Virus record (IMG/VR): IMGVR_UViG_3300046536_000163 | Location: 1-40,412 of that record | Strand: one strand, 5' to 3' | DNA length: 40,412 bases | DNA from: a virus | Part shown: one piece after another, positions 5,134-39,421 of the stretch | How the letters are laid out: each line of letters opens with the position of its first letter | How positions within the stretch are numbered: the stretch's first letter is position 1 | Notes under the pieces: model-generated | The model's database searches: none | What the model was told of the DNA's origin: nothing | The model's input: the letters and a program-made list of their open reading frames with translations, nothing else | Position numbers and translations under genes: made by a program

Positions 5134-5149
5134 CGAAACCCTGCCGTTC
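5134..5149 (+). promoter_or_regulatory. Early motif copy P4, ahead of the RDF operon
   Basis: CGAAACCCTGCCGTTC lies 5 bases after the preceding stop and about 100 bases before the ATG at 5239, with a strong hairpin between. Confidence 0.6.
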
Positions 5150-7196: not shown

Positions 7197-7292
7197 ATGC
7201 CGGTGTGGGCTCAAATGGTGATGATGTTCCTTCTCGGTGCGGCGCTGATCGCCGCCGGTAGCCAGGGTGGGGGGCCACGTCCCGGTGTCTAA
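7197..7292 (+). CDS. Micro membrane protein 2 (31 residues), paralogue of the preceding gene
   Basis: ATG 7197 lies 2 bases after the previous stop, and GAGGAAGG at 7179-7186 serves as ribosome site. The product starts MPVWAQMVMMFLLGAALIAAG and ends GSQGGGPRPGV. Tandem duplication of a single-helix peptide gene is the simplest explanation for the pair. Its end overlaps the likely GTG start of the nuclease gene by 8 bases. Confidence 0.5.
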   Translation: MPVWAQMVMMFLLGAALIAAGSQGGGPRPGV

Positions 7293-7839
7293 CCCGAACA
7301 AACAGCGCGGCACGGCGTGGGAGTCGGCCGTCCGCGACTACCTGAACGATCGCCTCGGGCTGTACGTCCCGCACTGGCGTGAACTCCCTGCGGGCATAAC
7401 GAAGTTCAGGAACCCGGCCGACCCGCTGAACGTCAAGCGGCAGGCACAGGAAGGCAACCACGACATCGGCGACCTTCACGCGTGGCCCGTCGTGGTCGAG
7501 TGCAAGGATGTGAAGTCGCCCGCCGTCCCAACGTGGCTACGGCAAGCGGAAGTTGAGGCGACGCACGCCGGGTTCCCGTACGGCATCGCTGTACACAAGG
7601 TGCGTAACCACTCGGTGCGGGACGGGCGGGTGCACATAGCCGTGCCGACGTGGCACCGCATGGCCGAAGCGCTCCGCGCGCCCGTCGACGGATGGGGGTT
7701 CGTGCTGTGCGCCCGGGGTTCGGATGAGTCGAAGTGGTACTACACCACGAACCTATGGACCTTCTCGCGCGTCATCATGGCGCTTCGCCACACGACTACG
7801 CACGGTTACGAAGGGGCCGATGCCGGCAACGGGTGCTAG
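7285..7839 (+). CDS. Holliday-junction-resolvase-like PD-(D/E)XK nuclease
   Basis: A 184-residue protein. GTG 7285 is preferred because the product then begins SNPNKQRGTAWESAV, the usual N-terminus of this actinophage nuclease type, with GGTGGGGGG about 10 bases upstream; an in-frame GTG at 7267 would add six residues. Catalytic pattern: E13 (WESAV), GNHDIGDL (D60, D63) and VVVECKD (E72, K74), the E-D-ExK core of Hjc-like endonucleases. Role would be resolving branched recombination or replication DNA before packaging. Its last codons form the left half of an inverted repeat shared with 29641-29681. Confidence 0.75.
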   Translation: MSNPNKQRGTAWESAVRDYLNDRLGLYVPHWRELPAGITKFRNPADPLNVKRQAQEGNHDIGDLHAWPVVVECKDVKSPAVPTWLRQAEVEATHAGFPYGIAVHKVRNHSVRDGRVHIAVPTWHRMAEALRAPVDGWGFVLCARGSDESKWYYTTNLWTFSRVIMALRHTTTHGYEGADAGNGC

Positions 7840-7886: not shown

Positions 7887-7902
7887 TGAAACCCTGCCGT
7901 TC
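7887..7902 (+). promoter_or_regulatory. Early motif copy P5, ahead of the primase gene
   Basis: TGAAACCCTGCCGTTC, 25 bases before the ATG at 7928. TACAGAGCGTGA just upstream resembles the flank of P1 (TACAGAGAGTAACGA). A short pairing GTTC/GAAC (7899-7902 with 7921-7924) spans the ribosome site. Confidence 0.6.
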
Positions 7903-7927: not shown

Positions 7928-10366
7928 ATGCTGTTCACTGACATACTCGCCCGCTTCCGGCAGGTTGAGCAGGTATCCGACGGGTACCTAGCACTGTGCC
8001 CCGCGCACAACGACTCGCGCCCCTCGCTCCGCATCTGGCGAGGGGAAGATCTGAAGGTCCGGCTCGCCTGCCGGTCCGGCTGCACGTTCCCGGACGTCGT
8101 CAAGGCTGCCGGGCTTCGGCAGTCGGACATGTTCGACGCGACCGGCCCCGGCGTCAACGTGCCGAAGGAGCGGCCGAAGATGGTCGGGGTCGGCCAGACT
8201 GCCGGACTCGCGAACTACATCGACCACACGGTGACCATTCTTCGGAAGCTTGACGACGAATGGTCCATCCGGGCAGCGACCTACGCAGAGAACCGGTTCG
8301 GGCTCGACCCGGAGTCGGCGTTCGAGCTGCAACTAGGCGTCGATGACGGCGAGATGATTCCCGTCGAGTGGTTCAAGTACCGGTCCCGTGCCTTCCTGAG
8401 CTTCCCGCGCCTCACGGTGCCGCTGGTCGGGTTCGACGGAGTCGCCCGGGGTTTGCAGGGTCGAGACCTGTCGGGGGACTGCCCCGGCCGGTGGGTTTCC
8501 CTGATGAACCCTGACGGGCAGCGCTGGGCCCCGTACGGCGTGTTCCGGGGTCAGGGTGGCTACGGGGTCACAGTCGTGTCCGAGGGGCCCGGAGACGGGC
8601 TCACAGCGGTTGCCGTTGGCTACGACGCCGTAGTGATCCGAGGGGCTGCCCTCGCCGGGGTCCCGGAACTGTTGGCCGAGCTAGCCGAGGGGCTTCGCGG
8701 GCATCAGGTGATCGCCGCAGGCGACAACGACAAGGCTGGACGCGAGTTCAACCGCCGGTTGGCCGAGGGGCTGAAGCCGTTCGGTATCGAGGTCTTCAGC
8801 CTGCCTATGCCGTGCGAGGGCGACGACCTGACAGCGTGGCGCGAGCGGGACCCGGACGGCTTCCCGAAGGCGCTGCACGACGCCGTCAAGGCCGCGTGCC
8901 CGGCCCGGAAGGCATCCGTCGTCCAGGCCGAAGCCGAGTCGGCCGAGATCACCACCCGGACCGGCTCCGTCGAGGTCACGGCGGAGCAAGGCGACGACGC
9001 GTCGGACATCCTGACGAAGCTTGTAAGCCGCTTCGGCGAGTCGGACGCAATGAACGCTCACGCGCTGGTCGCGTGGTCCGGGAACCGGGTCAAGTACGCG
9101 CCCGGTCTCGGGTTCTTCGTGTGGAACGGCACCGTGTGGGAGCGCTCAACTGTCAAGGTGCGTCAGGAGATTCACAAGATGGGGGCTGCTCTGGTCCTCG
9201 CCGGGCAACTCCAGAAGGCCCGTGCCTTCACCATGACGACGCGCATCGACGCGCTACTGACCGAACTCCGGTCGGTGCCGAACGTGCATGTCGACGCTGC
9301 CGAGTTCGACGCGAAGCCGCACCTTCTCAGCTTCCGGAACGGAACCGTCGACCTCCGGTCCGGCAAGATGCACGCTCACTCTCAGGCCGACATGCTCACC
9401 TACGCGCTCGACCTCGATTTCAAGCCCGACGCGACCTGTCCCCGATGGGAGTCGTTCCTAGATGAGATCTTCCCGGCGAACCCCGATCTTCCCGCGTACA
9501 TGCGTCGACTGGTCGGTTACGGGGTCACTGGACAGACGGATGAACAGTGCTTCGCTGTGTTGTGGGGGAAAGGCGCGAACGGCAAATCCGTCTTCACGGA
9601 CACGCTGACTGCCGTCTTCCGGGCCGTCTCCAAAACCACGCCGTTCGCCACGTTCGAGGAGAAGGGCAGTGGCGGCATCCCGAACGACATTGCTGCCCTT
9701 CGCGGGTCCCGTCTGGTCATGGCCAGTGAGGGTGAGTCCGGCAAGCCAATGTCTGAGGCTGTCCTGAAGCGGGTCACCGGTAAGGACATGATCGCCGCCC
9801 GCTTCCTCCGCCAAGAGTTCTTTGAGTTCCGGCCGACGTTCCTGCTCATGCTGGCGACCAACCACAAGCCGAAATTCCGGGGGCAGGACGAGGGGCTTTG
9901 GCGTCGAGTCAAGATGATCCCTTTCAAGCGGTGGTTTGCGCCGCATGAGCGGGACCATGAACTAGATCGGAAGTTGCTCGCCGAGGCGGAGGGCATCGCC
10001 GCATGGGCCGTGCGCGGGGCCGTCGAGTGGTACGCGGGTGGCCTCGAAGATCCGGGTGTCGTGAAGAAAGCCGTGAAGGAGTATCGGGAGACCAGCGATG
10101 CACTCGCCGGGTTCTTCCCGGGAATCCTCGAAGCGGCCGACGACGTCCACACCATGAACGGCAGTGAGGCGTTTCAGGACTACCTCGATTGGTGCGAGGC
10201 CGAGAACTTGCCCGGCCGTGAGCGGTGGACCCGCCGCAGCTTCTATGACGCCATGGAGGAGCGCGGCGTTACCCGGAAGAAAACCCGTACCGGCATTGCG
10301 CTGGTCGGCCTTCGTACGGCTGCCCTGGAGACCGTGAGCACTGGCCCGGGGATCTTCGCCGAGTAG
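7928..10366 (+). CDS. Primase-helicase (CHC2 zinc, TOPRIM, D5/SF3 helicase)
   Basis: An 812-residue replication protein. ATG 7928 is used because GAGGAAGGGAA precedes it; an in-frame ATG at 7883 would only translate the early motif. Domains: a zinc module with CPAHNDSRPSL (C24, H27) and CRSGC (C48, C52); TOPRIM with VVSEGPGDG (E219) and AAGDNDKAG (D266, D268); then a D5_N region and an SF3 helicase with Walker A WGKGANGKSVF (about 545-555), a MASEGE Walker-B-like acid pair, and LMLATNHKPKF (sensor/motif C). It would prime and unwind DNA at the fork for the family A polymerase encoded next. Full length, no sign of damage. Confidence 0.9.
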   Translation: MLFTDILARFRQVEQVSDGYLALCPAHNDSRPSLRIWRGEDLKVRLACRSGCTFPDVVKAAGLRQSDMFDATGPGVNVPKERPKMVGVGQTAGLANYIDHTVTILRKLDDEWSIRAATYAENRFGLDPESAFELQLGVDDGEMIPVEWFKYRSRAFLSFPRLTVPLVGFDGVARGLQGRDLSGDCPGRWVSLMNPDGQRWAPYGVFRGQGGYGVTVVSEGPGDGLTAVAVGYDAVVIRGAALAGVPELLAELAEGLRGHQVIAAGDNDKAGREFNRRLAEGLKPFGIEVFSLPMPCEGDDLTAWRERDPDGFPKALHDAVKAACPARKASVVQAEAESAEITTRTGSVEVTAEQGDDASDILTKLVSRFGESDAMNAHALVAWSGNRVKYAPGLGFFVWNGTVWERSTVKVRQEIHKMGAALVLAGQLQKARAFTMTTRIDALLTELRSVPNVHVDAAEFDAKPHLLSFRNGTVDLRSGKMHAHSQADMLTYALDLDFKPDATCPRWESFLDEIFPANPDLPAYMRRLVGYGVTGQTDEQCFAVLWGKGANGKSVFTDTLTAVFRAVSKTTPFATFEEKGSGGIPNDIAALRGSRLVMASEGESGKPMSEAVLKRVTGKDMIAARFLRQEFFEFRPTFLLMLATNHKPKFRGQDEGLWRRVKMIPFKRWFAPHERDHELDRKLLAEAEGIAAWAVRGAVEWYAGGLEDPGVVKKAVKEYRETSDALAGFFPGILEAADDVHTMNGSEAFQDYLDWCEAENLPGRERWTRRSFYDAMEERGVTRKKTRTGIALVGLRTAALETVSTGPGIFAE

Positions 10367-10383
10367 TCGAGCAAACAGAGAGG

Positions 10384-10408
10384 GCACCTACTCAATGTGA
10401 GTAGGTGC
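10384..10408 (+). promoter_or_regulatory. 25-bp palindrome S3 (with U-run)
   Basis: GCACCTACTCA-ATG-TGAGTAGGTGC lies between the primase and polymerase genes and is followed by CTTTTCG. As RNA it makes a long stem with a 3-base loop plus a short U-run, so this copy could also work as an intrinsic terminator or attenuator. Confidence 0.7.
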
Positions 10409-10433
10409 CTTTTCGTGTATGGGGAGAGAGCAC

Positions 10434-12287
10434 ATGCGCACCTATCACCACCACATCGCGGGCGACGTCGTCACGGTCAACGTGCCCGAAACCTCGGCCG
10501 ACGTAGACGAGTTCATTGAGTGGTTCAAGGCCGCGTGGTACCGGGGGCCGATCGCCCTCGACACCGAGACGACCGGTCTTGACATCTTCTCGACCGGGTA
10601 CCGGCTCCGCACGGTCCAGTTCGGCGACGCGCACACGGCATGGGTCCTGCACTTTGAGCTAGGCGGGTGGTTCGCCGGGGCCGTTCAGTGGGCGCTGCAA
10701 ACCGCCGGTACCCGGTGGCTCATCCATAACGCCCCGTTCGATTGGCTGGTCATTGACCGGCACGTCTGGGGTGTGACCCTGGAAGACCTCGCCCCGCGAA
10801 CCGTCGACACGAAGATTCTCGCCGCGCTGGTCGATCCGAGGCAGCCGCAGGAAGGCGGCACGGGCACCGGTCTGAAGCCGCTCAGTGCCTACTACGTCGA
10901 CCCGTCCGCCCCGGACACTCAGGGCGACCTCACTGCCGTGTTCAACTCCCTCGGGCTCACCAAAGAAACCGGCTGGGCGCTGATCGACCTTCACCACCCG
11001 ACGTACAACCTGTACGCAGGTCTCGACGTCATCCTGACTGCCCGGCTCCATCCGAAGCTGGTCGGCAAGCTCCAATTCCTCGGCGTGCGCGAGCGGTTGG
11101 TGCAGTACGAGGGTGAGATAGCGCGCATCTGTGCCGTGATGCAGCGGCGCGGCATGGTCCTGGATATCGAGTTCACCCGTGAGCTTGACGCGATCCTCGC
11201 CGCCGAGGCGTACGAGTACGCCGAGAAGGCCGCGCGGTACGGCGTCGACAACGTGAACAGCACGGCACAGATAGCCGAGGCGCTCGACGGCATGGGGGAG
11301 TCGCTGACCGAGCGGACCCCGTCCGGTGACGTCAAGGTGGATAAGGCGATCCTGTGCGCGCTGTCCGACCTCGACCTTCAGGGGAACCGGCTCGACGTCC
11401 GCACGCCGAACCCGCTCGCCGTCGCTGTGCTGCGGAGCAAGCGCGCGGGGAAGTGGCGCAAGACGTACGCCTCGACGTTCCTCGACACGGTCGACGCCGA
11501 CGGCCGGGTTCACCCGAACATCAACGCGCTTCAGGCTCGCACCGGTCGCATGTCCATCACGCGGCCCGCACTCCAGACACTCCCGTCGTCTGATCAGATG
11601 ATCCGCCGTTGCCTTCTCGCCGACGAGGGGCACGTGATCGTGTCGACGGACTTCGCGGCTGTCGAGATGCGCGTGTTGGCTTCCCTCGCCGACGTCCGTC
11701 GCATGAAAGAGGCCATCCGTGCGGGCGAGGACTTGCACGACTACACGGCCCGGCTGGTCTTCGGCGAGGGGTTCACGAAGAAACACCGGAAGCTCTGCAA
11801 GGGGGTCGGCTTCGGCAAGGTGTACGGCGGTGGTGCCGAGACCATCGCACGGCAGACCGGTGCACCGATCGAGGACGTGCGTCGGGCTATCGCGGCGTAT
11901 GACCGTGTGTACCCCGAGATCAAGCGCGCGTCCGCCCGCTGGCAGCGTGAGGCACGGGGCACGGGCATGGTCCACGTGTCGGCGACCGGCCGCCGACTGC
12001 CCCTCGACCGGGACCGGACGTACGCCGTCGTGAACTACGCGTGCCAGTCGGCCGCACGGGACGTTCTCGGGCAGTCAATGTTGCACATGGAGGAAGCGGG
12101 CTTGCTCGACTACATGCGGCTTCCAATCCATGACGAGGTGCTCGCGTCGGTGCCCGCCGACGAGGCAAGCGACTTCGCCCGCGAGTTCGAGCGCTGCATG
12201 ACGTTCGATCTCCGGGGCGTGCCGATTCAGGCCGAGGCCGAGATCGGCGGACGGTCGTGGGGAAGCCTGTACGGGGCTGACTTTTGA
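10434..12287 (+). CDS. Family A DNA polymerase with 3'-5' exonuclease
   Basis: A 617-residue protein; ATG 10434 follows GGGGAGAGAG. The exonuclease domain opens with IALDTETTGLD (D43, E45) and includes IHNAPFDW (Exo II-like). The polymerase domain has the thumb/finger QARTGRMSITRPALQTLP, motif A VSTDFAAVEMRVLA near residue 405, motif B KKHRKLCKGVGFGKVYGGG near 447-465 and motif C PIHDEV near 565. The set of primase-helicase then PolA is the standard replisome core of phiC31-like phages. No 5'-3' exonuclease domain, as usual for phage PolA of this size. Confidence 0.92.
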   Translation: MRTYHHHIAGDVVTVNVPETSADVDEFIEWFKAAWYRGPIALDTETTGLDIFSTGYRLRTVQFGDAHTAWVLHFELGGWFAGAVQWALQTAGTRWLIHNAPFDWLVIDRHVWGVTLEDLAPRTVDTKILAALVDPRQPQEGGTGTGLKPLSAYYVDPSAPDTQGDLTAVFNSLGLTKETGWALIDLHHPTYNLYAGLDVILTARLHPKLVGKLQFLGVRERLVQYEGEIARICAVMQRRGMVLDIEFTRELDAILAAEAYEYAEKAARYGVDNVNSTAQIAEALDGMGESLTERTPSGDVKVDKAILCALSDLDLQGNRLDVRTPNPLAVAVLRSKRAGKWRKTYASTFLDTVDADGRVHPNINALQARTGRMSITRPALQTLPSSDQMIRRCLLADEGHVIVSTDFAAVEMRVLASLADVRRMKEAIRAGEDLHDYTARLVFGEGFTKKHRKLCKGVGFGKVYGGGAETIARQTGAPIEDVRRAIAAYDRVYPEIKRASARWQREARGTGMVHVSATGRRLPLDRDRTYAVVNYACQSAARDVLGQSMLHMEEAGLLDYMRLPIHDEVLASVPADEASDFAREFERCMTFDLRGVPIQAEAEIGGRSWGSLYGADF

Positions 12288-12298
12288 TAACGGTTTGG

Positions 12299-12323
12299 TC
12301 ACCTACTCAACGTGAGTAGGTGC
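12299..12323 (+). promoter_or_regulatory. 25-bp palindrome S4
   Basis: TCACCTACTCA-ACG-TGAGTAGGTGC (first base differs) starts 12 bases after the polymerase stop and opens the non-coding region 12288-12635. That region holds, in order, S4, a GTCTA operator (12404), a terminator (12475), a Crp-type box (12532) and early motif P6 (12581), all before the sigma-factor gene. Confidence 0.7.
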
Positions 12324-12403
12324 CCCCGTTGGGCAACGTCTCATCCCTGCGGCGTACTTGACCCGAGGTCAGTACCTCTGGAGTCTGAGGCTCCGTTTCA
12401 AAA

Positions 12404-12419
12404 GTCTATAGCTGTAGAC
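12404..12419 (+). promoter_or_regulatory. Isolated GTCTA-N6-TAGAC operator upstream of the sigma-factor gene
   Basis: GTCTATAGCTGTAGAC matches the six operators at 19192-19345, which lie 6.8 kb away in front of the HTH gene. It is the only other copy I found in the window. TTTCAAAAG just upstream makes the place AT-richer than its surroundings, as expected for a promoter region. Confidence 0.65.
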
Positions 12420-12474
12420 AACCACTGACGTGCGGGTTTACGTTTCCTTCACGAAGCACGAACGGCCCGCGCAA

Positions 12475-12505
12475 GCCCCCGTCTTCGAAACCCGGAGACG
12501 GGGGC
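12475..12505 (+). terminator. Intrinsic terminator
   Basis: GCCCCCGTCT (12475-12484) pairs with AGACGGGGGC (12496-12505) around an 11-nt loop. It separates the polymerase transcript, and anything started near the operator at 12404, from the sigma-factor gene; a small product upstream of it is not visible. Confidence 0.75.
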
Positions 12506-12531
12506 CGTGTGGTTCCGCGCTGCCTTTTTCA

Positions 12532-12553
12532 AGGTGTGATGCGCGTCACACCT
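12532..12553 (+). promoter_or_regulatory. Crp-type palindrome upstream of the sigma-factor gene
   Basis: AGGTGTGA-TGCGCG-TCACACCT is a perfect 8-bp inverted repeat around a 6-bp spacer. It contains TGTGA-N6-TCACA, the consensus of CRP-family sites, including actinobacterial Crp/GlxR. It lies 28 bases before early motif P6 and 83 bases before the sigma-factor ATG. The match to the consensus is exact; use by host Crp is inference. Confidence 0.55.
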
Positions 12554-12580
12554 AGCTAGGGCTGCTCTGCCCCCGTCTGA

Positions 12581-12596
12581 CGAAACCTTGCCGTTC
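12581..12596 (+). promoter_or_regulatory. Early motif copy P6, ahead of the sigma-factor gene
   Basis: CGAAACCTTGCCGTTC, 40 bases before the ATG at 12636. GTTCC (12593-12597) can pair with GGAAC (12600-12604) or with GGAAC in CAAGGAACTC (12610-12614), a leader hairpin as at other copies. If the encoded sigma factor reads this motif, the gene is autoactivated. Confidence 0.6.
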
Positions 12597-12635
12597 CCCG
12601 GAACTCAAGGAACTCAGACACAGGAGCAGACCGAC

Positions 12636-13439
12636 ATGATCAAGCTGTCCATGGAGCAGATCGCCGACGCCAAGGCGAACGACCTCTCCGCCGTTACGGC
12701 CGTGATCGAGGCAACCGAGGAGCGCGTTCAGCAACTCGCCTACCGGCACGCCAGCATCGGCGGGCGCATCGACCAGGACCTTCGGGAAGACCTCGCTCAG
12801 ATCGGCCGCATGAACGTGTGGGAGGCCATCAAGCGGTTCGAGGGAACGACGGTCGCCGAGTTCTTCGTGTTCATCGACAGCACGGTAGACGGGCAGATGA
12901 GCAACGAGCGCAAGCGCGACACCCGGCAGGGAGTGTCTCGCGACACGGCAGCCCGTTTCGAGATAGCGCTGAGCGCCGCCGAGGGTGACGCGTACAAGGC
13001 TGAGAAGCTCGCTCAGACCACGGAGGTCATGGGCCGACGCCCGATGAGCGCTGACCGGGCGTACGCCGCTCGCTTGGCGTACCAGGGGGTGCAGTACCTC
13101 GACGCACCCGCCACGGGTGACAGCGGGGAGGGCTTCTCGACCTTCGGAGAGATGCTCGCTGACGTGGTCGGGGTGCCCGTCGACCTGTTGGAGCCGAGCG
13201 ACTTCGAGAAGGCCCGTCGGCGCGAGACGCGAGACAAGGTGCACGCCACCCTCGACCGCATGGGTTTCCAGGCCCGGACCGTGCTGAAGGGCATGACGGG
13301 CATCGACCCCGTCGGCTTCTACGGCACCGAGCATGACGAAGAACTCGCGGCCGACTTCGGCATTCCGCGCGACCGCATCCGGACCATACGGAGCCTGGGC
13401 CGTAAGCGTTTCGCCGAGCTGTACACCTTCGCCAACTAG
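12636..13439 (+). CDS. Phage-encoded sigma-70-family factor
   Basis: A 267-residue protein; ATG 12636 with CAGGAGC 10 bases upstream. Residues 19-90 match region 2: VQQLAYRHAS, then DLREDLAQIGRMNVWEAIKRFE (compare DLxQxGxxGLxxAxxRFD of sigma-70) and FFVFIDSTVDGQMSNERKR. Residues 150-180 (YLDAPATGDSGEGFSTFGEMLAD) match the region 3-4 linker, typically SLDxPxGxExxxxLGDxLxD. Residues 197-262 are region 4, with ARTVLKGMTGID and the HTH ELAADFGIPRDRIRTIRSLGRKRF. It likely redirects host RNA polymerase to phage promoters. It could instead act as an anti-host or repressor-like variant, since region 2.4/-10 contacts cannot be judged by eye. Confidence 0.75.
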   Translation: MIKLSMEQIADAKANDLSAVTAVIEATEERVQQLAYRHASIGGRIDQDLREDLAQIGRMNVWEAIKRFEGTTVAEFFVFIDSTVDGQMSNERKRDTRQGVSRDTAARFEIALSAAEGDAYKAEKLAQTTEVMGRRPMSADRAYAARLAYQGVQYLDAPATGDSGEGFSTFGEMLADVVGVPVDLLEPSDFEKARRRETRDKVHATLDRMGFQARTVLKGMTGIDPVGFYGTEHDEELAADFGIPRDRIRTIRSLGRKRFAELYTFAN

Positions 13440-13471
13440 CCACTGCCGCAACCGAGTTCAGGAGACACGCA

Positions 13472-13633
13472 ATGACGTTCACCACTGACAACGGCTCGAC
13501 CATCCAGGTCACTCCGGTAGGCGAGGGGTACGACTTGCACCTTCGCAACCCGAAGGGCGAAACGGTCGCGACCGTCGTCGTCCAGAACGACGCCGCGCTT
13601 CGCGCCATGCTCCCGGCGGGTGCCCGTGTCTGA
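13472..13633 (+). CDS. Small beta-rich hypothetical protein (53 residues)
   Basis: ATG 13472 with CAGGAGAC upstream; stop TGA 13631-13633. The product reads MTFTTDNGSTIQVTPVGEG then YDLHLRNPKGETVATVVVQNDAALRAMLPAGARV, alternating strands and a short helix. No family recognised. It sits in the sigma-factor operon and its end overlaps the next start. Confidence 0.6.
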   Translation: MTFTTDNGSTIQVTPVGEGYDLHLRNPKGETVATVVVQNDAALRAMLPAGARV

Positions 13634-13835
13634 GCGCCGCGAGAACCTCGCCGTCACGCTGGTGAAGCCCTCCGTCGCCCTCACGGTCAACCCGCGCGGT
13701 GACGAGACGGTCACGATCAAGGGCCGGTACATCTACGGTCGCAACATCGACATCACGTCCATGCAGCTCACGATGGAGGCAGCCGAAGACCTCCGGGACC
13801 TTCTGAACATGGTCATCGCCTACGCGAGCGAGTAG
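13626..13835 (+). CDS. Small hypothetical protein (69 residues)
   Basis: GTG 13626 is chosen over in-frame GTG 13620 because the GGCGGGTG ribosome-site-like sequence then has normal spacing; both overlap the previous gene. The product alternates strands (LAVTLVKPSVALTVNPRGDETVTIKGRYIYGRNIDITSMQL) and ends in a helix (TMEAAEDLRDLLNMVIAYASE). The strand-strand-helix plan resembles the 71-residue product at 13880, whose C-terminus (ITLEADDARWLRASFADLTRVL) has the same form, so the two may be diverged duplicates. Its last codons overlap operator S5. Confidence 0.6.
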   Translation: MSERRENLAVTLVKPSVALTVNPRGDETVTIKGRYIYGRNIDITSMQLTMEAAEDLRDLLNMVIAYASE

Positions 13836-13858
13836 GTGCTACGGTGCAGCCGCACAGT
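13816..13858 (+). promoter_or_regulatory. Degenerate palindrome S5 with promoter
   Basis: The left arm TCGCCTACGCG lies inside the 3' end of the preceding gene; the right arm CGAGTAGGTGC (13829-13839) is nearly perfect, with a 2-base spacer. CGAGTA (13829-13834) is followed after 18 bases by CACAGT (13853-13858), aligned with the -10 of S1. GGTGCTACGGT follows the arm exactly as at S1. ATG 13880 is 21 bases downstream. Confidence 0.5.
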
Positions 13859-13879
13859 GACAACGACGAAGGGGAGAGC

Positions 13880-14095
13880 ATGAGCGAGGACTACACGCCG
13901 AGGCGGGCGAAGCTGAGGCTGACCAACATCGGTGTCTCGCCGGTCGGAGAGGGGCGGTTGGTCATCCTCGCCGACGATGAGCTTCGCGGCCCGGTCGAGA
14001 TCACGTTGGAGGCCGACGACGCCCGGTGGCTGCGGGCAAGCTTCGCCGACCTTACGCGGGTGCTGTACTGGCCCGACCTCGCCGACGCCGAGTAG
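13880..14095 (+). CDS. Small hypothetical protein (71 residues) under its own operator-promoter
   Basis: ATG 13880 with GGGGAGAG upstream. Sequence MSEDYTPRRAKLRLTNIGVSP then VGEGRLVILADDELRGPVEITLEADDARWLRASFADLTRVLYWPDLADAE: several strands and a C-terminal helix, acidic end. It resembles the preceding 69-residue protein in plan. It is separated as a single gene by promoter S5 and the terminator at 14111, so it is independently regulated by the palindrome-binding factor. Function unknown. Confidence 0.65.
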   Translation: MSEDYTPRRAKLRLTNIGVSPVGEGRLVILADDELRGPVEITLEADDARWLRASFADLTRVLYWPDLADAE

Positions 14096-14110
14096 CACGA
14101 CACGTGACGA

Positions 14111-14130
14111 CCCCGCTTCGGCGGGGTTTT
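14111..14130 (+). terminator. Intrinsic terminator
   Basis: CCCCGC-TTCG-GCGGGG followed by TTTT, 15 bases after the stop of the preceding gene. Confidence 0.88.
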
Positions 14131-14140
14131 CGCGTTTTAG

Positions 14141-14185
14141 GCACCTACTCAATGTGAGTAGGTGCTAGGGTCACCCCTGTACGGT
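14141..14185 (+). promoter_or_regulatory. Palindrome S6 with promoter
   Basis: Perfect GCACCTACTCA-ATG-TGAGTAGGTGC at 14141-14165. TGAGTA (14155-14160) and TACGGT (14180-14185) are 19 bases apart, as at S1 and S5. GGTGCTAGGGT follows the palindrome. It drives the gene at 14209. Confidence 0.6.
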
Positions 14186-14208
14186 CGACGGAGCGAAGGA
14201 GCGGGACG

Positions 14209-14739
14209 ATGGCAGCGAAGCGGACAACGAAGGTCACTCACCCGGACGGCACGGTGTCCACCCGCACCAGCGTGACGAAGGTCTACGCCTTCGCGATCGA
14301 GGTCGAGGAAGACATGCACCAGACCGCGTACGCGAAGGAAGACCATTGGGCCTCGCTGGTCGACTCCCGTCGCCGGTTCAAGGCTGCTGCTGCTGCCCCG
14401 GAACTTCGCAAGGTGCCCGATCGTGGGATGACGCATATCTACCTGGTCGACCCGGAAGCCGTCGAGGACGAAGGCAAGGGGTTCTACCTCGGCCACGAAG
14501 GCGGGTACGGGAACGTCGTCTTCCATGAGGCCGAGTGCATCGCGACGACGGCCCGCGATATTCAGGCGCGCATCGACAGCGTCGCCAAGGAGATCGACGC
14601 GCTTCTGTCCGGCCCGCAGATTCATTACGGCGTGGTCCGCTGGTCGGAGCGAGCCGACTCGGCGACGAATGCGCTTGCCGAGTTCCAGCGCAACGCAGGC
14701 TACCGGAAGTACCGCGTAGTCGAAGCCGTCGAAGCCTGA
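14209..14739 (+). CDS. Hypothetical protein, 176 residues, monocistronic under S6
   Basis: ATG 14209 with AAGGAG 8 bases upstream. The N-terminus is basic (MAAKRTTKVTHPDG) and followed by KVYAFAIEVEEDMHQTAYAKEDHWASLV. The middle has strands (MTHIYLVDPEAVEDEGKGFYLGHEGGYGNVVF) and the C-terminal half a long helix (ATTARDIQARIDSVAKEIDALL). No enzymatic or DNA-binding motif recognised. Being bounded by a palindrome-controlled promoter and a terminator, it belongs with 1303 and 13880 as a separately controlled unit, which suggests a regulatory or lysogeny-linked role without proving it. Confidence 0.7.
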   Translation: MAAKRTTKVTHPDGTVSTRTSVTKVYAFAIEVEEDMHQTAYAKEDHWASLVDSRRRFKAAAAAPELRKVPDRGMTHIYLVDPEAVEDEGKGFYLGHEGGYGNVVFHEAECIATTARDIQARIDSVAKEIDALLSGPQIHYGVVRWSERADSATNALAEFQRNAGYRKYRVVEAVEA

Positions 14740-14752
14740 CCGTCTAGAAACT

Positions 14753-14777
14753 GCCCCCGCTTCGGCGGGGGCTTTCT
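14753..14777 (+). terminator. Intrinsic terminator
   Basis: GCCCCCGC-TTCG-GCGGGGGC then TTTCTT, 13 bases after the stop of the gene at 14209. Confidence 0.88.
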
Positions 14778-14787
14778 TGCGTTTGGG

Positions 14788-14829
14788 GCACCTACTCAAT
14801 GTGAGTAGGTGGGTTACCCCGGGTACGGT
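14788..14829 (+). promoter_or_regulatory. Palindrome S7 with possible promoter
   Basis: GCACCTACTCA-ATG-TGAGTAGGTGG (last base differs). TGAGTA (14802-14807) and TACGGT (14824-14829) are 16 bases apart. The nearest rightward gene begins 170 bases later, so any leader is long and passes the repeats at 14890-14945. Confidence 0.55.
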
Positions 14830-14889
14830 GACCGGCAATGCCACAACCTACGCGCCCGTAACATAATGGGTTGTCAGGTTTAGGTAACG

Positions 14890-14945
14890 GTGTACGCCTA
14901 TGGGATGATTCCGGCGTACGCCTACGGGGTTAAGATTCCGTTAAC
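14890..14945 (+). repeat. Cluster of short repeats in the 190-bp gap before 15002
   Basis: GTGTACGCCTATGGG (14890-14904) and GCGTACGCCTACGGG (14914-14928) are direct repeats 24 bp apart, 13 of 15 identical. GTACGCC and GGCGTAC also form an inverted pair, and GTTAA-GATTCCG-TTAAC at 14929-14945 is a palindrome. AAGATTCCGT recurs at 14932 and 14990. Operator cluster or attP are both possible. No gene is visible in 14830-15001. Confidence 0.5.
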
Positions 14946-15001
14946 GTACCCCCGACCTGGGGGGGACGTCGCTTCTAGTAACCGGATGTGAAGATTCCGT
15001 C

Positions 15002-15427
15002 ATGAGAAACGGGATGTATCGCGTAGAGCTGCACGTGACGATCCCTGCCCGCCGCCCTTCGGGACGCGTCGAGTGGGTATCTGCCCCGACGTACGAAAGC
15101 GCGTCCTTCATTGAACTAGTCCGAGGTCCGGCCGAGTGTGACCGTCTCGCCGAGGCCATGGCAGTTCACGTCGGCCGTGTGCTGATGGTCGAGGATGTGA
15201 CCGGCTACCGAATAGCCGTTCGGGGCCTGACGAGTGGCTTCCTCTGCGCTATGGGGGAGTGGCACCGGCACGGCCGAGGGCAATTCGAACAGGCGTACGT
15301 ATGGGCTGCCTGTTGGGACGACGTCACACCCGCATGTCTCGCCCGCGCACAACCCGCACCCGGCTGGGACCGGGCACCGGAGCACGACGCCCGCCACAAG
15401 CCCACAGACAGCCGCCTCACGGCCTGA
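15002..15427 (+). CDS. Hypothetical protein, 141 residues
   Basis: ATG 15002 lacks a clear Shine-Dalgarno (the preceding bases are GAAGATTCCGTC); ATG 15014 is an alternative, with GAGAAACGGG before it. The N-terminal half has strands (MYRVELHVTIPARRPSGRVEWVSAPTYESASF) and the middle FIELVRGPAECDRLAEAMAVHVGRVLMVEDVTGYRIAVRG. The last 60 residues are rich in Trp, Ala, Pro and Arg and look disordered. The 3' end faces the leftward gene at 15484 across a bidirectional terminator. No function recognised. The gene at 16971 has a similar GATTCCG-CC start context. Confidence 0.55.
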   Translation: MRNGMYRVELHVTIPARRPSGRVEWVSAPTYESASFIELVRGPAECDRLAEAMAVHVGRVLMVEDVTGYRIAVRGLTSGFLCAMGEWHRHGRGQFEQAYVWAACWDDVTPACLARAQPAPGWDRAPEHDARHKPTDSRLTA

Positions 15428-15435
15428 CAAGACGA

Positions 15436-15475
15436 CGAAGCCCCGTACTGCCAACTGTCGGCGTACGGGGCTTCG
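15436..15475. terminator. Bidirectional terminator between convergent genes
   Basis: CGAAGCCCCGTAC (15436-15448) is perfectly complementary to GTACGGGGCTTCG (15463-15475). It lies between the stop of the rightward gene (15427) and the stop of the leftward gene (15484), as expected for a shared terminator. Confidence 0.85.
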
Positions 15476-15483
15476 TGGTGCCG

Positions 15484-15852
15484 CTAGGCGTGTACGAGGG
15501 GGGAGTCTGCGGGCAGCGCCGCCCATGGGTCAGCGGCCGACCGTGCGTCAGCTCGCCGCTGGATTCCGGGGCCGTACCAACCTTCCGGCAGGTACCACGC
15601 CGGTCCGCCGTCGAGCTCGCGCTGTGCACGGCACCGGTTGAGCCAGCGCATGGCTTCGTTGAAGTCTTCCCACTCCAACCGCCCCGTGTCGGGCAGGGAG
15701 CACCACGCGGGGTCTCCGTTGAGGTTTCGGTCCGTAAGCATCGTGTCGAGGATGCCGAACCAACGGCGGTGAATACCGTTGCTGATCTCCGTGCGGCAGG
15801 GCATCACGACGTAGCGGTTTGAGCGGCGGCGGCGAAGCAGTGGCTCTGTCAT
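15484..15852 (-). CDS. Hypothetical protein of the leftward lysogeny cassette (122 residues)
   Basis: A leftward gene from ATG 15852 to the stop at 15484. The N-terminus is basic (MTEPLLRRRRSNRYVVM), followed by RRWFGILDTMLTDRNLNGD and PDTGRLEWEDFNEAMRWLNRCRAQRELDGGPAWYLPEGWYGP, mixed helix with many Trp. No family recognised. It is supported by the convergent terminator at its 3' end, tight spacing of 20 bases behind the next leftward gene, and the lack of any good rightward gene in the region. Likely the last gene of a leftward operon expressed in the prophage. Confidence 0.6.
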   Translation of the reverse strand: MTEPLLRRRRSNRYVVMPCRTEISNGIHRRWFGILDTMLTDRNLNGDPAWCSLPDTGRLEWEDFNEAMRWLNRCRAQRELDGGPAWYLPEGWYGPGIQRRADARSAADPWAALPADSPLVHA

Positions 15853-15872
15853 GCCGTCAATTGTGGCCCGTA

Positions 15873-16502
15873 CTAGCCGTGCTGGTCCACCACTACGTGC
15901 ACAGTGAGTGCACCCGCGCCATCACCGACGACACCCCGCCATTCGCCCCCGTCGGCGAGTGCCTTCCGGATGCTGTCGTGGTCGGCTGTGAGCCCGTGTG
16001 TGGCGAGGAAGCCGAGGGTTTCCGGAAGCGTGTCGGCCTTGAACGTCGTTCGGCCCTGGAGTCCCTGGGCGAGTACGCGGTATCCCATGGGATCACCGTA
16101 CGCGGGCACAAGTAGGGGCGGGAACGCAGACGTGGTGAACCAATACCGCTTCGGGGCCGCGTGACGCCGTCTGACGGGCTTCGGTGAGCCCGTAGCGCGC
16201 TTCGTGCGGGGCGCTGTGCGAGTGCGGCGGGTGGCACGGTGTGAGGGCTTGTGCGGGGTGCTGACGTACGTCCTCGGGTGCGGGGCTTCGGGGTGCCACG
16301 GAAGGACCCTCGACACAAGGTGGCTCAGGGTGGGAGAGAGCACGTCGGCAACTAGGTCTTGAGGGGACTCGGCGTCGGGCTGTGAATTCCCCGGTGCCGT
16401 CTGCTGTGCGTGCACGGCATCAAAGGCCAGCCCGATAACGGCCGAGGCGAGGAAGAAACAGGTAGCGACAGCGCTTACGCGGTCGCCCTTCGGGTACTTC
16501 AT
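15873..16502 (-). CDS. Secreted or membrane-anchored basic protein of the leftward cassette
   Basis: ATG 16502 is chosen because, read on the minus strand, GGGAG lies about 8 bases upstream; an in-frame ATG at 16622 overlaps the neighbouring gene. The 209-residue product begins MKYPKGDRVS followed by AVATCFFLASAVIGLAF and AVHA-QQ, a signal peptide or anchor with an AxA-like cleavage site. Residues 65-125 are Arg/Pro/His/Thr-rich (THKPSHRATRRTRTAPRTKRATG) and probably disordered. The C-terminal 85 residues look folded (YRVLAQGLQGRTTFKADTLPETLGFLATHGL and ALTVHVVVDQHG). A cell-envelope protein beside an integrase suggests lysogenic conversion or superinfection exclusion; that is inference. Confidence 0.6.
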   Translation of the reverse strand: MKYPKGDRVSAVATCFFLASAVIGLAFDAVHAQQTAPGNSQPDAESPQDLVADVLSPTLSHLVSRVLPWHPEAPHPRTYVSTPHKPSHRATRRTRTAPRTKRATGSPKPVRRRHAAPKRYWFTTSAFPPLLVPAYGDPMGYRVLAQGLQGRTTFKADTLPETLGFLATHGLTADHDSIRKALADGGEWRGVVGDGAGALTVHVVVDQHG

Positions 16503-19191: not shown

Positions 19192-19345
19192 GTCTAGCGG
19201 TGTAGACGGGGCCGAGGTCTACCGGTGTGGACTCACCCGTCTATCGCTGTAGACCCAAGTGTCTACCGCTGTAGACAATCCGGCGTCGGGGCTGGTACAA
19301 CCCCTGTCTACACCTATAGACCGAAGCGCTTCTACAGCGCTAGAC
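19192..19345 (+). promoter_or_regulatory. Array of six GTCTA-N6-TAGAC operators
   Basis: 16-bp palindromes lie at 19192-19207, 19217-19232 (TGGAC in the right arm), 19239-19254, 19261-19276, 19306-19321 and 19330-19345 (TTCTA in the left arm). Centre-to-centre distances are 25, 22, 22, 45 and 24 bp, so sites lie about two helical turns apart with one position skipped. The last ends 13 bases before the ATG of the HTH gene. A seventh copy is at 12404-12419. This is the expected form of cooperative autoregulation. Confidence 0.85.
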
Positions 19346-19358
19346 CGAAGGGGCTCAC

Positions 19359-19829
19359 ATGCTCGCGACCATAGACGCCGTCCGTAGCGGGGACGTCTTC
19401 GCCGACGTGTACGGCGGGATCTTCGCCGCCCTGTCCGACGCCACCCCGGACGACACCGAGACGTGGTCTGTACTGGCCGTTCAGTTCGCCGCAGGCGTCG
19501 ACTACGACGAGTCCACAGACACGCTCCATCTCGGTAATCTCCCTGTCATGACGATGCAGCAGCCGACCGGCGAACCGGTCGAGATCCACCAGCGCGACCT
19601 ACCCATGACGCACGACGACGCCGTGTCCGCGCTGCGCGACCGGAAGGCAGCGAAGGTCGAGGCCGACGTGGCGGCCGAGGAAGCCACAGAGGCGTTCTAC
19701 GCCTCGATCAGAGACGCCTTCGCGGCGAAGGTCGACCTGGACGAACTGATTGCCGAGACGGGCCTTAAAAAGGCCATGCTGTACCGCATCCGGCAGGGCG
19801 GGGCCGGTCGGCTGAAGCGGGGAGAGTGA
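19359..19829 (+). CDS. HTH DNA-binding protein, candidate repressor of the GTCTA operators
   Basis: A 156-residue protein; ATG 19359 with AAGGGG 7 bases upstream. Residues 1-80 form a domain without recognised motif (FADVYGGIFAALSDATPDD, WSVLAVQFAAGVDYDEST). Residues 85-122 are a helical, charged segment (THDDAVSALRDRKAAKVEADVAAEEATEAFYASI). Residues 125-148 read as a helix-turn-helix: LDELIAETGLKKAMLYRIRQG, with a basic tail GRLKRGE. The six-operator array directly in front makes autoregulation very likely, and the copy at 12404 links it to the sigma-factor gene. It is a monocistron closed by the terminator at 19861. Repressor, Cro-like protein or antirepressor cannot be told apart. Confidence 0.7.
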   Translation: MLATIDAVRSGDVFADVYGGIFAALSDATPDDTETWSVLAVQFAAGVDYDESTDTLHLGNLPVMTMQQPTGEPVEIHQRDLPMTHDDAVSALRDRKAAKVEADVAAEEATEAFYASIRDAFAAKVDLDELIAETGLKKAMLYRIRQGGAGRLKRGE

Positions 19830-20060: not shown

Positions 20061-20097
20061 TGACACCCTGCCGTTCCGGCATGAAACCCTGCCGTTC
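20061..20097 (+). promoter_or_regulatory. Tandem early motifs P7 and P8 ahead of the tRNA array
   Basis: TGACACCCTGCCGTTC (20061-20076) and TGAAACCCTGCCGTTC (20082-20097) are 21 bases apart, start to start, on the plus strand. Nothing coding follows until the tRNA-like genes at 20214, so they likely drive that array. The doubled motif, two helical turns apart, is unique in the genome. Confidence 0.6.
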
Positions 20098-38887: not shown

Positions 38888-39421
38888 ATGACAAACCTTG
38901 CCGTTCCAGTACCAGCACAGGAAACCGTCGGCAATCTGATCACGGCGGCACTGTGGAACGCCAACGTCTACAACGGGTTGACGTACCTCCTTAACCGTCC
39001 GCTGTTCACCGGGTACCAGACGACCGCGCAGAGTGTCACTAACACGGCGTGGACGTCGCTCAACATCGACACCGAAGACCTTGACGGGTACGGCGGGCAC
39101 AGTAACACCGTTAACCCGAGTCGGTACACGCCAACAGTTCCCGGTACCTACCTGCTAATTGGGACAGTCGGCTTCGCCTCCAACGCGACCGGCTACCGGT
39201 GCGCTCGCCTCTGCCTGAACGGCAGTCTGATCAAGGGTACGGGTGTCCAGCTCCCCGCTACCACCGGTATTTGGGGGGCGACGACCCTCGGCTTCGTCGT
39301 GTGCAACGGGACGACGGACTACCTAGAGCTTCAGGGGTGGCAGAGCAGTGGAGCCGCGCTGAACACGAACCCAAATGCTGAGTCCTCGCCCGCATTTCGG
39401 GCGCTCTGGATATCCAACTAA
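38888..39421 (+). CDS. Tail fibre or tip protein with C1q-like jelly-roll domain
   Basis: A 177-residue protein; ATG 38888 with GGGAG 8 bases upstream. The N-terminus TNLAVPVPAQETVGNLITAALWNANVYNGLTYLLNRPLF is a common attachment segment (Q-x-xG-xxITAxxWNANV). Residues 45-177 are beta-rich: WTSLNIDTEDLDGYGGHSN, YTPTVPGTYLLIGTVGFASNATGYRCARLCLNGSLIKGT and GTTDYLELQGWQSSGAALN, as in C1q/TNF-like jelly rolls with PGxYxxxGxVxF. Probably a receptor-binding tip. Its first codons contain a copy of the early motif (38891-38906). Confidence 0.75.
   Translation: MTNLAVPVPAQETVGNLITAALWNANVYNGLTYLLNRPLFTGYQTTAQSVTNTAWTSLNIDTEDLDGYGGHSNTVNPSRYTPTVPGTYLLIGTVGFASNATGYRCARLCLNGSLIKGTGVQLPATTGIWGATTLGFVVCNGTTDYLELQGWQSSGAALNTNPNAESSPAFRALWISN
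38891..38906 (+). promoter_or_regulatory. Early-motif-like sequence P9 inside the tail-fibre start
   Basis: ACAAACCTTGCCGTTC matches P6 (CGAAACCTTGCCGTTC) at 14 of 16 bases but lies within the first codons of the tail gene. It may be a promoter for the lysis genes or a coincidence of coding sequence. Confidence 0.3.

Follow-up and report, generated by a model that had tools for sequence, protein, structure and literature searches.

The gene at positions 12636-13439 of the window (the whole stretch of 40,412 bases analysed here) encodes a sigma-70-family factor, and a short motif repeated on one strand covaries with this factor among related phages. We consider it probable that the sigma redirects the host RNA polymerase to promoters formed by this motif, that its own message is locked by a hairpin and that the two together constitute a positive feedback switch. 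This explanation builds on a computed sigma fold, on the repetition of the motif, on motif-sigma covariation and on a recurrent hairpin that pairs the Shine-Dalgarno sequence of the sigma gene.

The gene and its product comprise the following features:
12636-13439, + strand: sigma-70-family factor gene of the phiC31 gp12 family, 267 aa (open reading frame, ATG start, homology, fold)
12622-12626, + strand: Shine-Dalgarno AGGAG of the sigma gene (sequence)
12705-12926, + strand: region 2 match, residues 24-97 (Pfam Sigma70_r2; sigma2 fold at 2.4 Å over 90 residues)
13098-13175, + strand: region 3.2/sigma-finger-like linker, about residues 155-180 (aligned with the SLxxP...L.D segment of RpoD)
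13203-13436, + strand: region 4 with helix-turn-helix, about residues 190-267 (profile alignment, AlphaFold2, VIA-align)

PHROG 15865, "RNA polymerase sigma factor", matched residues 4-176 with E 7e-48. The matches to Pfam Sigma70_r2 (E 9e-5, 22.6 bits) and NCBIfam TIGR02937 (E 2e-8, 33.8 bits) remained under cut-offs of 24 and 42.9 bits, which are annotation thresholds and not biological features. A profile of 17 relatives aligned with RpoD, SigA and RpoS across profile positions 7-265; in region 4 the match ran through position 264-267, and the model showed helices at 234-241 and 245-266. The AlphaFold2 model, computed from a 69-row alignment of the window protein and IMG/VR proteins, reached a mean pLDDT of 87 and a pTM of 0.52, with low confidence (pLDDT 57-64) over most of the region 3.2 linker. 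All 50 matches listed by Foldseek against the PDB were RNA polymerase or sigma factor entries, two of them titled RPSB-RPOC and RPSD-RPOB, which we take to be sigma-B and sigma-D names. With VIA-align, the sigma2 domain alone superimposed on RpoS region 2 (5h6x) over 90 residues at 2.4 Å (Z 11.4), and SigB (8x6g) was aligned with Z 12.7 and an rmsd of 14.8 Å over 207 residues. Whole-length alignments had rmsd values of 14-20 Å which, together with the low pTM, fit loosely placed domains.

Families, profile, AlphaFold2, Foldseek and VIA-align were all in line with the original prediction of a sigma factor with region 2, a 3-4 linker and region 4, and the three segments singled out there represent region 2, finger 3.2 and the helix-turn-helix of region 4.2. 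The sigma2 and sigma4 folds, the absence of which had been named as one argument against this assignment, were both predicted. Judged by homology and modelled structure, this is a real gene for a sigma-70-family protein with sigma2, sigma3, finger and sigma4. The protein family and its sigma annotation are not new, since the phiC31 gp12 family is already annotated as sigma factor.

The window has a 127-bp terminal repeat and carries an RDF-like gene and genes for a serine integrase, primase, terminase, portal, capsid and endolysin. The polymerase open reading frame (10419-12287) could be aligned with polymerases of relatives, and a repressor gene was recognized:
1228-2475, + strand: phiC31-type repressor c (Pfam PF25746, E 6e-43)
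This gene content, including repressor c, integrase and polymerase, is that of a temperate phiC31-like phage, and no DNA near-identical to positions 10000-16000 was found among phages. The sigma gene lies 3' of the polymerase gene after a gap of 348 bp (12287 to 12636), and a sigma gene following the polymerase with a long gap was present in 15 of 15 annotated Streptomyces phage genomes fetched. Proteins of this kind had been called uncommon in siphophages; across phages as a whole they are rare (tblastn matched 27 of 50,697 records, all Streptomyces phages or Lomovskayavirus, Heather gp38 being closest with 48.7%) but usual in their own group, a relative being encoded on 118 of 184 pattern-bearing IMG/VR stretches, the best 80 of which were used here.

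The window protein is homologous to phiC31 gp12 (PHROG 15865; NP_047957.1, "RNA polymerase sigma factor"), sharing its domains, 34% identity in the alignment (tblastn E 8e-20) and the order primase, DNA polymerase, long gap, sigma. It differs by its length, 267 against 396 aa, and by its motif sequence. An insertion between finger and region 4, present in phiC31, BT1, TG1, Shawty, Vash and Samora, is absent from the window protein; in the sigmas of the phiC31-BT1-TG1 branch (L005, L010, L011, L013, L018, L019) it measures about 100 residues. Heather-group sigmas (L006 30334-31347, L014 30256-31260, L016 30564-31568) carry an extra cysteine-rich C-terminal part, CKACGI..CKSCKR, and in Heather and RemusLoopin the gene next to sigma is annotated endonuclease VII. 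The arrangement sigma2-sigma3-finger-sigma4, without space for region 1.1, is reminiscent of group 3 sigmas (FliA, SigB, SigF). Unlike these, the window protein is only about 11-18% identical to solved sigmas (VIA-align rows), and its candidate promoter is one block of 15-16 nt.

This block, the motif GAAACCCTGCCGTTC, matched the window nine times with up to two mismatches, always on the + strand, where 0.10 matches were expected and none of 100 shuffles reached nine. It takes the form GAyGAAACCCTGCCGTTCy in the window phage, and the motif scan located it as follows:
589-603, + strand: copy before the dNMP kinase gene (start 636)
2533-2547, + strand: copy with no start of an open reading frame (at least 40 aa) found close by
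2836-2850, + strand: copy before the exonuclease gene (2884)
5135-5149, + strand: copy upstream of the RDF-like gene (5239)
7888-7902, + strand: copy before the primase gene (likely start 7928)
12582-12596, + strand: copy GAAACCTTGCCGTTC before the sigma gene, 1 mismatch, 54 bp 5' of the ATG
20062-20097, + strand: two tandem copies upstream of the tRNA/packaging region
38892-38906, + strand: weakest copy, 2 mismatches, overlapping the start of an open reading frame; may be due to chance
The "early motif" predicted upstream of the sigma gene is thus present, at 12582.

A scan upstream of sigma in 16 phages gave for most of them a one-strand repeat of their own at about -45 to -55: GGTTGCCGACTCCCTT in phiC31, GGTCACCGACTCCCTT in BT1 and Shawty, GTCGCCGACTCCCTT in TG1, GGGAATCCCCTCCGCTC in Heather and GGCATTCGACTCACT in Rowa. 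In Shaeky, Attoomi, Sycamore and Shady other repeats scored higher, and the motifs were seeded by eye; their sets look noisier. Motif class A (35) or B (40) could be attributed to 75 of 95 upstream regions; the class tests were run without the other 20 (Shaeky, Sycamore, Shady, Abbey, Attoomi and 15 IMG/VR loci). The sigma leader was taken to reach from 400 bp before to 60 bp after the sigma start. Beyond it, 63 phage genomes or loci contained 348 copies on the + strand, against 24 matches on the - strand. Certain copies (L005 12980 and 40570; L011 12339 and 40854; L010 12303 and 39425; L013 12285) are directly followed by TATAGGTAG or a close variant; these precede a tail gene and the tRNA/cos region and are possibly a late or stronger promoter variant.

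The motif and the sigma factor changed together. On trees of 62 sequences, motif class changed once along the sigma tree and six times along the polymerase tree, the lowest numbers under shuffled labels being 15 and 14, respectively. Fourteen loci that duplicated a named record or another locus, or were near-duplicates or fragments, had been left out; motif and start codon of L026, L028 and L030 and the motif of L047 were set by hand because the automatic start lay upstream or the score was low. Mean sigma identity was.51 and.53 within the classes and.34 between them; for the polymerase, the values were.67 and.68 within and.64 between. Loci L055 and L057 have a class-A-like polymerase (0.80 and 0.81 to L043), yet both have a class B sigma and a class B motif, the latter also in copies located some 5 and 7 kb away from sigma.

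Within the classes, partial Mantel tests of motif against sigma given polymerase, performed on distant copies, gave r =.33 for class A (n = 30) and r =.54 for class B (n = 29), both with p =.001, where distant copies, having been identified by their resemblance to the sigma-linked one, are not independent of it, and where the faster evolution of sigma compared to polymerase may favour sigma. By sigma region, class A showed its strongest correlations for residues 70-112 (.46) and 101-155 (.44) and a weak one for region 4 (r =.12, p =.056); in class B, region 4 (.49) and residues 70-112 (.41) were both strong. Among the proteins present in the window and in at least 20 loci, sigma alone split clearly by class, with distances of.49 within and.66 between classes; in the seven others the two values differed by 0 to.08. 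It also had the top motif correlation among shared proteins present in at least 49 loci; the protein at window positions 7267-7836, found in 22 loci only, equalled sigma on that set (r =.66, within classes). When mutual information between the motif and single sigma residues was computed, the promoter-reading helices did not stand out; descent dominates. Motif distance tracks sigma after correction for the polymerase, which is most simply explained by sigma reading the motif as a promoter. A single block of about 15-16 nt differs from the two boxes 17 bp apart that most sigma promoters have, so such reading would be unusual.

The copy before the sigma gene is enclosed in a hairpin:
12560-12632, + strand: hairpin in the mRNA that surrounds the motif and pairs the Shine-Dalgarno, with stems CTGCTC/GAGCAG (outer) and GTCTGA/TCAGAC (next); MFE -28.9 kcal/mol, matching hairpins in relatives
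Sixty-one sigma leaders had a mean fold z of -2.84, with 45 of them below -2, and in 49 at least three of six Shine-Dalgarno bases were paired upstream of the motif. The leader alignment leaves the stems out of register, and arm-swap tests were therefore used instead of column-wise covariation. In 68 phages, 12 of them unclassed with motifs added by hand, own arms gave -19.6 vs -16.7 kcal/mol for swapped arms (mean rank.70, p = 1.4e-7). Excess stability was absent from the leaders of L021, L055, L057, L062 and L081 (z about 0 or higher); low ranks in the arm-swap test were seen for L055, L057, L021, L075 and others. Rfam gave no match within the sigma leader.

With the message assumed to start 5 nt past the motif, the Shine-Dalgarno of the 61 sigma leaders had a predicted openness of.24 in the read-through RNA and of.56 in the motif-started RNA. 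The corresponding values were.30 and.55 for 48 other genes with the motif, compared with.41 and.44 for 275 control starts trimmed to equal length (gain versus control, p = 1e-14 and 4e-7); the 3' half of the motif is complementary to the Shine-Dalgarno, so the effect at the other genes is partly built into the motif. Mean fold z was -1.56 for 49 other motif genes, a few of which rest on weak motif matches, vs -1.01 for 277 controls (p =.009). Away from the sigma gene, pairing from the motif to downstream sequence, compared with swapped pairs at 181 sites including weak ones, was only slightly specific (mean rank.555, p =.026). Within the window, the predicted gain was clear for the copy at 589 (.00 to.54) and modest for the sigma gene (.24 to.43); the primase copy showed none (.49 to.43). 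The geometry of the sigma-leader hairpin matches the embedded-promoter type, with the motif as putative promoter.

The upstream region contains candidates for the elements that would start such a switch:
12415-12444, + strand: host-like promoter candidate, TAGACA, 18-bp spacer, TACGTT (sequence)
12404-12419, no strand: GTCTATAGCTGTAGAC (GTCTA) inverted repeat over the -35 of the host-like promoter (pattern search)
In a pattern search, 41 of 95 upstream regions had TA[CG]GTT or TAAGTT at 120-320 nt 5' of the sigma start. We propose that sigma is first transcribed from this host-type promoter once the putative operator over its -35 is free. In the resulting long message the Shine-Dalgarno would be shut in the hairpin, blocking ribosomes, and little sigma would be made. 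The rare sigma molecules would bind the host polymerase and start transcription at the motif inside the hairpin, and the short message, lacking the 5' closing arm, would be well translated and yield more sigma. Increased sigma would then turn on the other genes with motif promoters, which precede early genes as well as the tRNA/packaging region. The outcome would be a positive feedback switch, tight until tripped. The earlier suggestion that the sigma gene is the control point of the lytic programme gains indirect support from the motif-sigma covariation. We are more hesitant about a generalization to phiC31-like phages, namely that sigma promoters double as anti-Shine-Dalgarno arms and so tie transcription start to translation phage-wide, that the strongest lock, on the sigma gene, makes a bistable lytic switch, and that co-drift has led to many mutually exclusive sigma-promoter pairs; this is possible but tentative.

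Other explanations of the same data have to be considered. The motif might be the operator of another phage activator, with a real sigma that uses other promoters, and the covariation might reflect shared descent of a regulatory block. The single short block without a second box would suit such an operator, residue-level covariation singled out no residues, and one copy adjoins the sigma gene and travels with it. In the recombinants L055 and L057, however, distant copies go with the sigma clade, and the class split of sigma is the strongest of the eight proteins shared by at least 20 loci; we consider this explanation unlikely. It is also rather improbable that the motif is an RNA element, such as the site of a translational regulator or of a processing nuclease, whose pyrimidine half pairs the Shine-Dalgarno. 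Covariation with a sigma factor is not expected for an RNA element, pairing outside the sigma leader was just slightly site-specific, and early promoters of phiC31 that become active in lytic growth have been mapped in this region. Nevertheless, the 3' half of the motif pairs with the Shine-Dalgarno at many genes, BT1 28224, TG1 16847 and Heather 26803 being preceded by long hairpins, and the motif is restricted to the + strand, all of which would be in line with an RNA element.

The hairpin, too, could have another role, as a terminator or attenuator that halts read-through from the polymerase gene, the Shine-Dalgarno pairing being incidental. Its stems are stable and GC-rich, a second hairpin lies upstream at 12476-12504, and phiC31 terminators lacking U-tracts have been described. 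On the other side, the sigma-leader hairpin has no U-tract, and at least three of six Shine-Dalgarno bases pair in 49 of 61 leaders despite changing stem sequence, which makes this role quite improbable in our view. We give very little credence to a sigma-like remnant or decoy that binds the polymerase without directing initiation. Such a protein might account for Pfam and NCBIfam scores below the cut-offs and for a region 4 that is very divergent among relatives, but sigma2, sigma3 and sigma4 are all predicted and the position of the gene is kept in the 15 annotated genomes. An active sigma factor reading the motif, with a lock on its own message, remains our preferred reading.

A comparable lock is described for T4 in PMC3014915, where the leaders of gene e, soc, 49 and I-TevI have a promoter in the 5' strand of a hairpin that closes the translation start; the early long message of gene e is closed and its late-promoter message is open. 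The predicted situation here is of the gene e type, with a closed long message and an embedded-promoter message without the closing arm. Whereas the named T4 cases are lysozyme, soc, 49 and a homing endonuclease, the lock in the window phage, which is unrelated, would control the sigma gene, and other genes with the motif show weaker signs of it. The T4 protein gp55 is described as a phage sigma replacing the host sigma at late promoters (TATAAATA; PMC3014915). The window sigma would likewise replace the host sigma at phage promoters. T4 gp55 lacks region 4, unlike the window sigma.

The tie between sigma and motif and the lock on the sigma message may be new. Widely used Streptomyces vectors derive from phiC31, and we know of no report that identifies the activator of its early promoters. 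Through the covariation, gp12 becomes a candidate for this role that is open to direct test. If the proposed reading holds, many diverged sigma-promoter pairs would be available for separate control circuits in Streptomyces, and a T4-type message lock would sit on the master regulator itself. No report tying gp12 to the phiC31 early promoters or describing a lock on the sigma message was found in the openly licensed PMC literature, which omits the classic phiC31 papers, and passages of PMC5311408 and PMC11302927 contained nothing relevant.

Further elements surround the sigma gene:
12535-12550, no strand: palindrome TGTGATGCGCGTCACA, the proposed "Crp-type box"; one exact TGTGA-N6-TCACA in the window
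12476-12504, + strand: GC-rich leader hairpin CCCCCGTCT/AGACGGGGG, terminator- or attenuator-like, no U-tract (sequence)
12300-12322, no strand: copy of the CACCTACTCAACGTGAGTAGGTG repeat just 3' of the polymerase gene (repeat scan)
A GTCTA operator and a Crp-type box had both been proposed upstream of the sigma gene. The GTCTA repeat is real and, overlapping the -35 of the host-like promoter, is probably an operator; the pattern gave 13 strand-matches in the window, about seven sites, where 1.4 were expected. The most dispersed inverted repeat of the window is, however, CACCTACTC..GAGTAGGTG, with 11 copies. phiC31 and the Heather group have different inverted repeats near the place of the host promoter, and no array of at least three GTCTA-type repeats was found by regex in the fetched loci. 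In the window, an array of about six GTCTA-N6-TAGAC repeats, spaced 22-45 bp, occupies 19192-19345 between the integrase gene and the open reading frame 19359-19829. The product of this frame was considered as the binder of the repeats and rejected, having no phage homologue and just a weak helix-turn-helix match. The letters of the Crp-type box are present as described, but by eye the box does not look kept as a Crp site; several relatives have different palindromes at this place, which leaves Crp binding unsupported.

The hairpin type at 12476-12504 looks, from its sequence, like an attenuator or small RNA. Many phages have a CAACGACG/GAACGGC-like sequence followed by a GC-rich hairpin between the host-like promoter and the sigma motif. 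The 23-bp inverted repeat like CACCTACTCAACGTGAGTAGGTG has its 11 window copies at 1225, 6859, 10376, 12291, 14133, 14780, 20997, 22540, 27005, 35934 and 38842; these dispersed repeats are probably repressor operators or terminators. phiC31 contains 15-17 near-copies per strand of a palindrome similar to CACCTACTCAACGTGAGTAGGTG.
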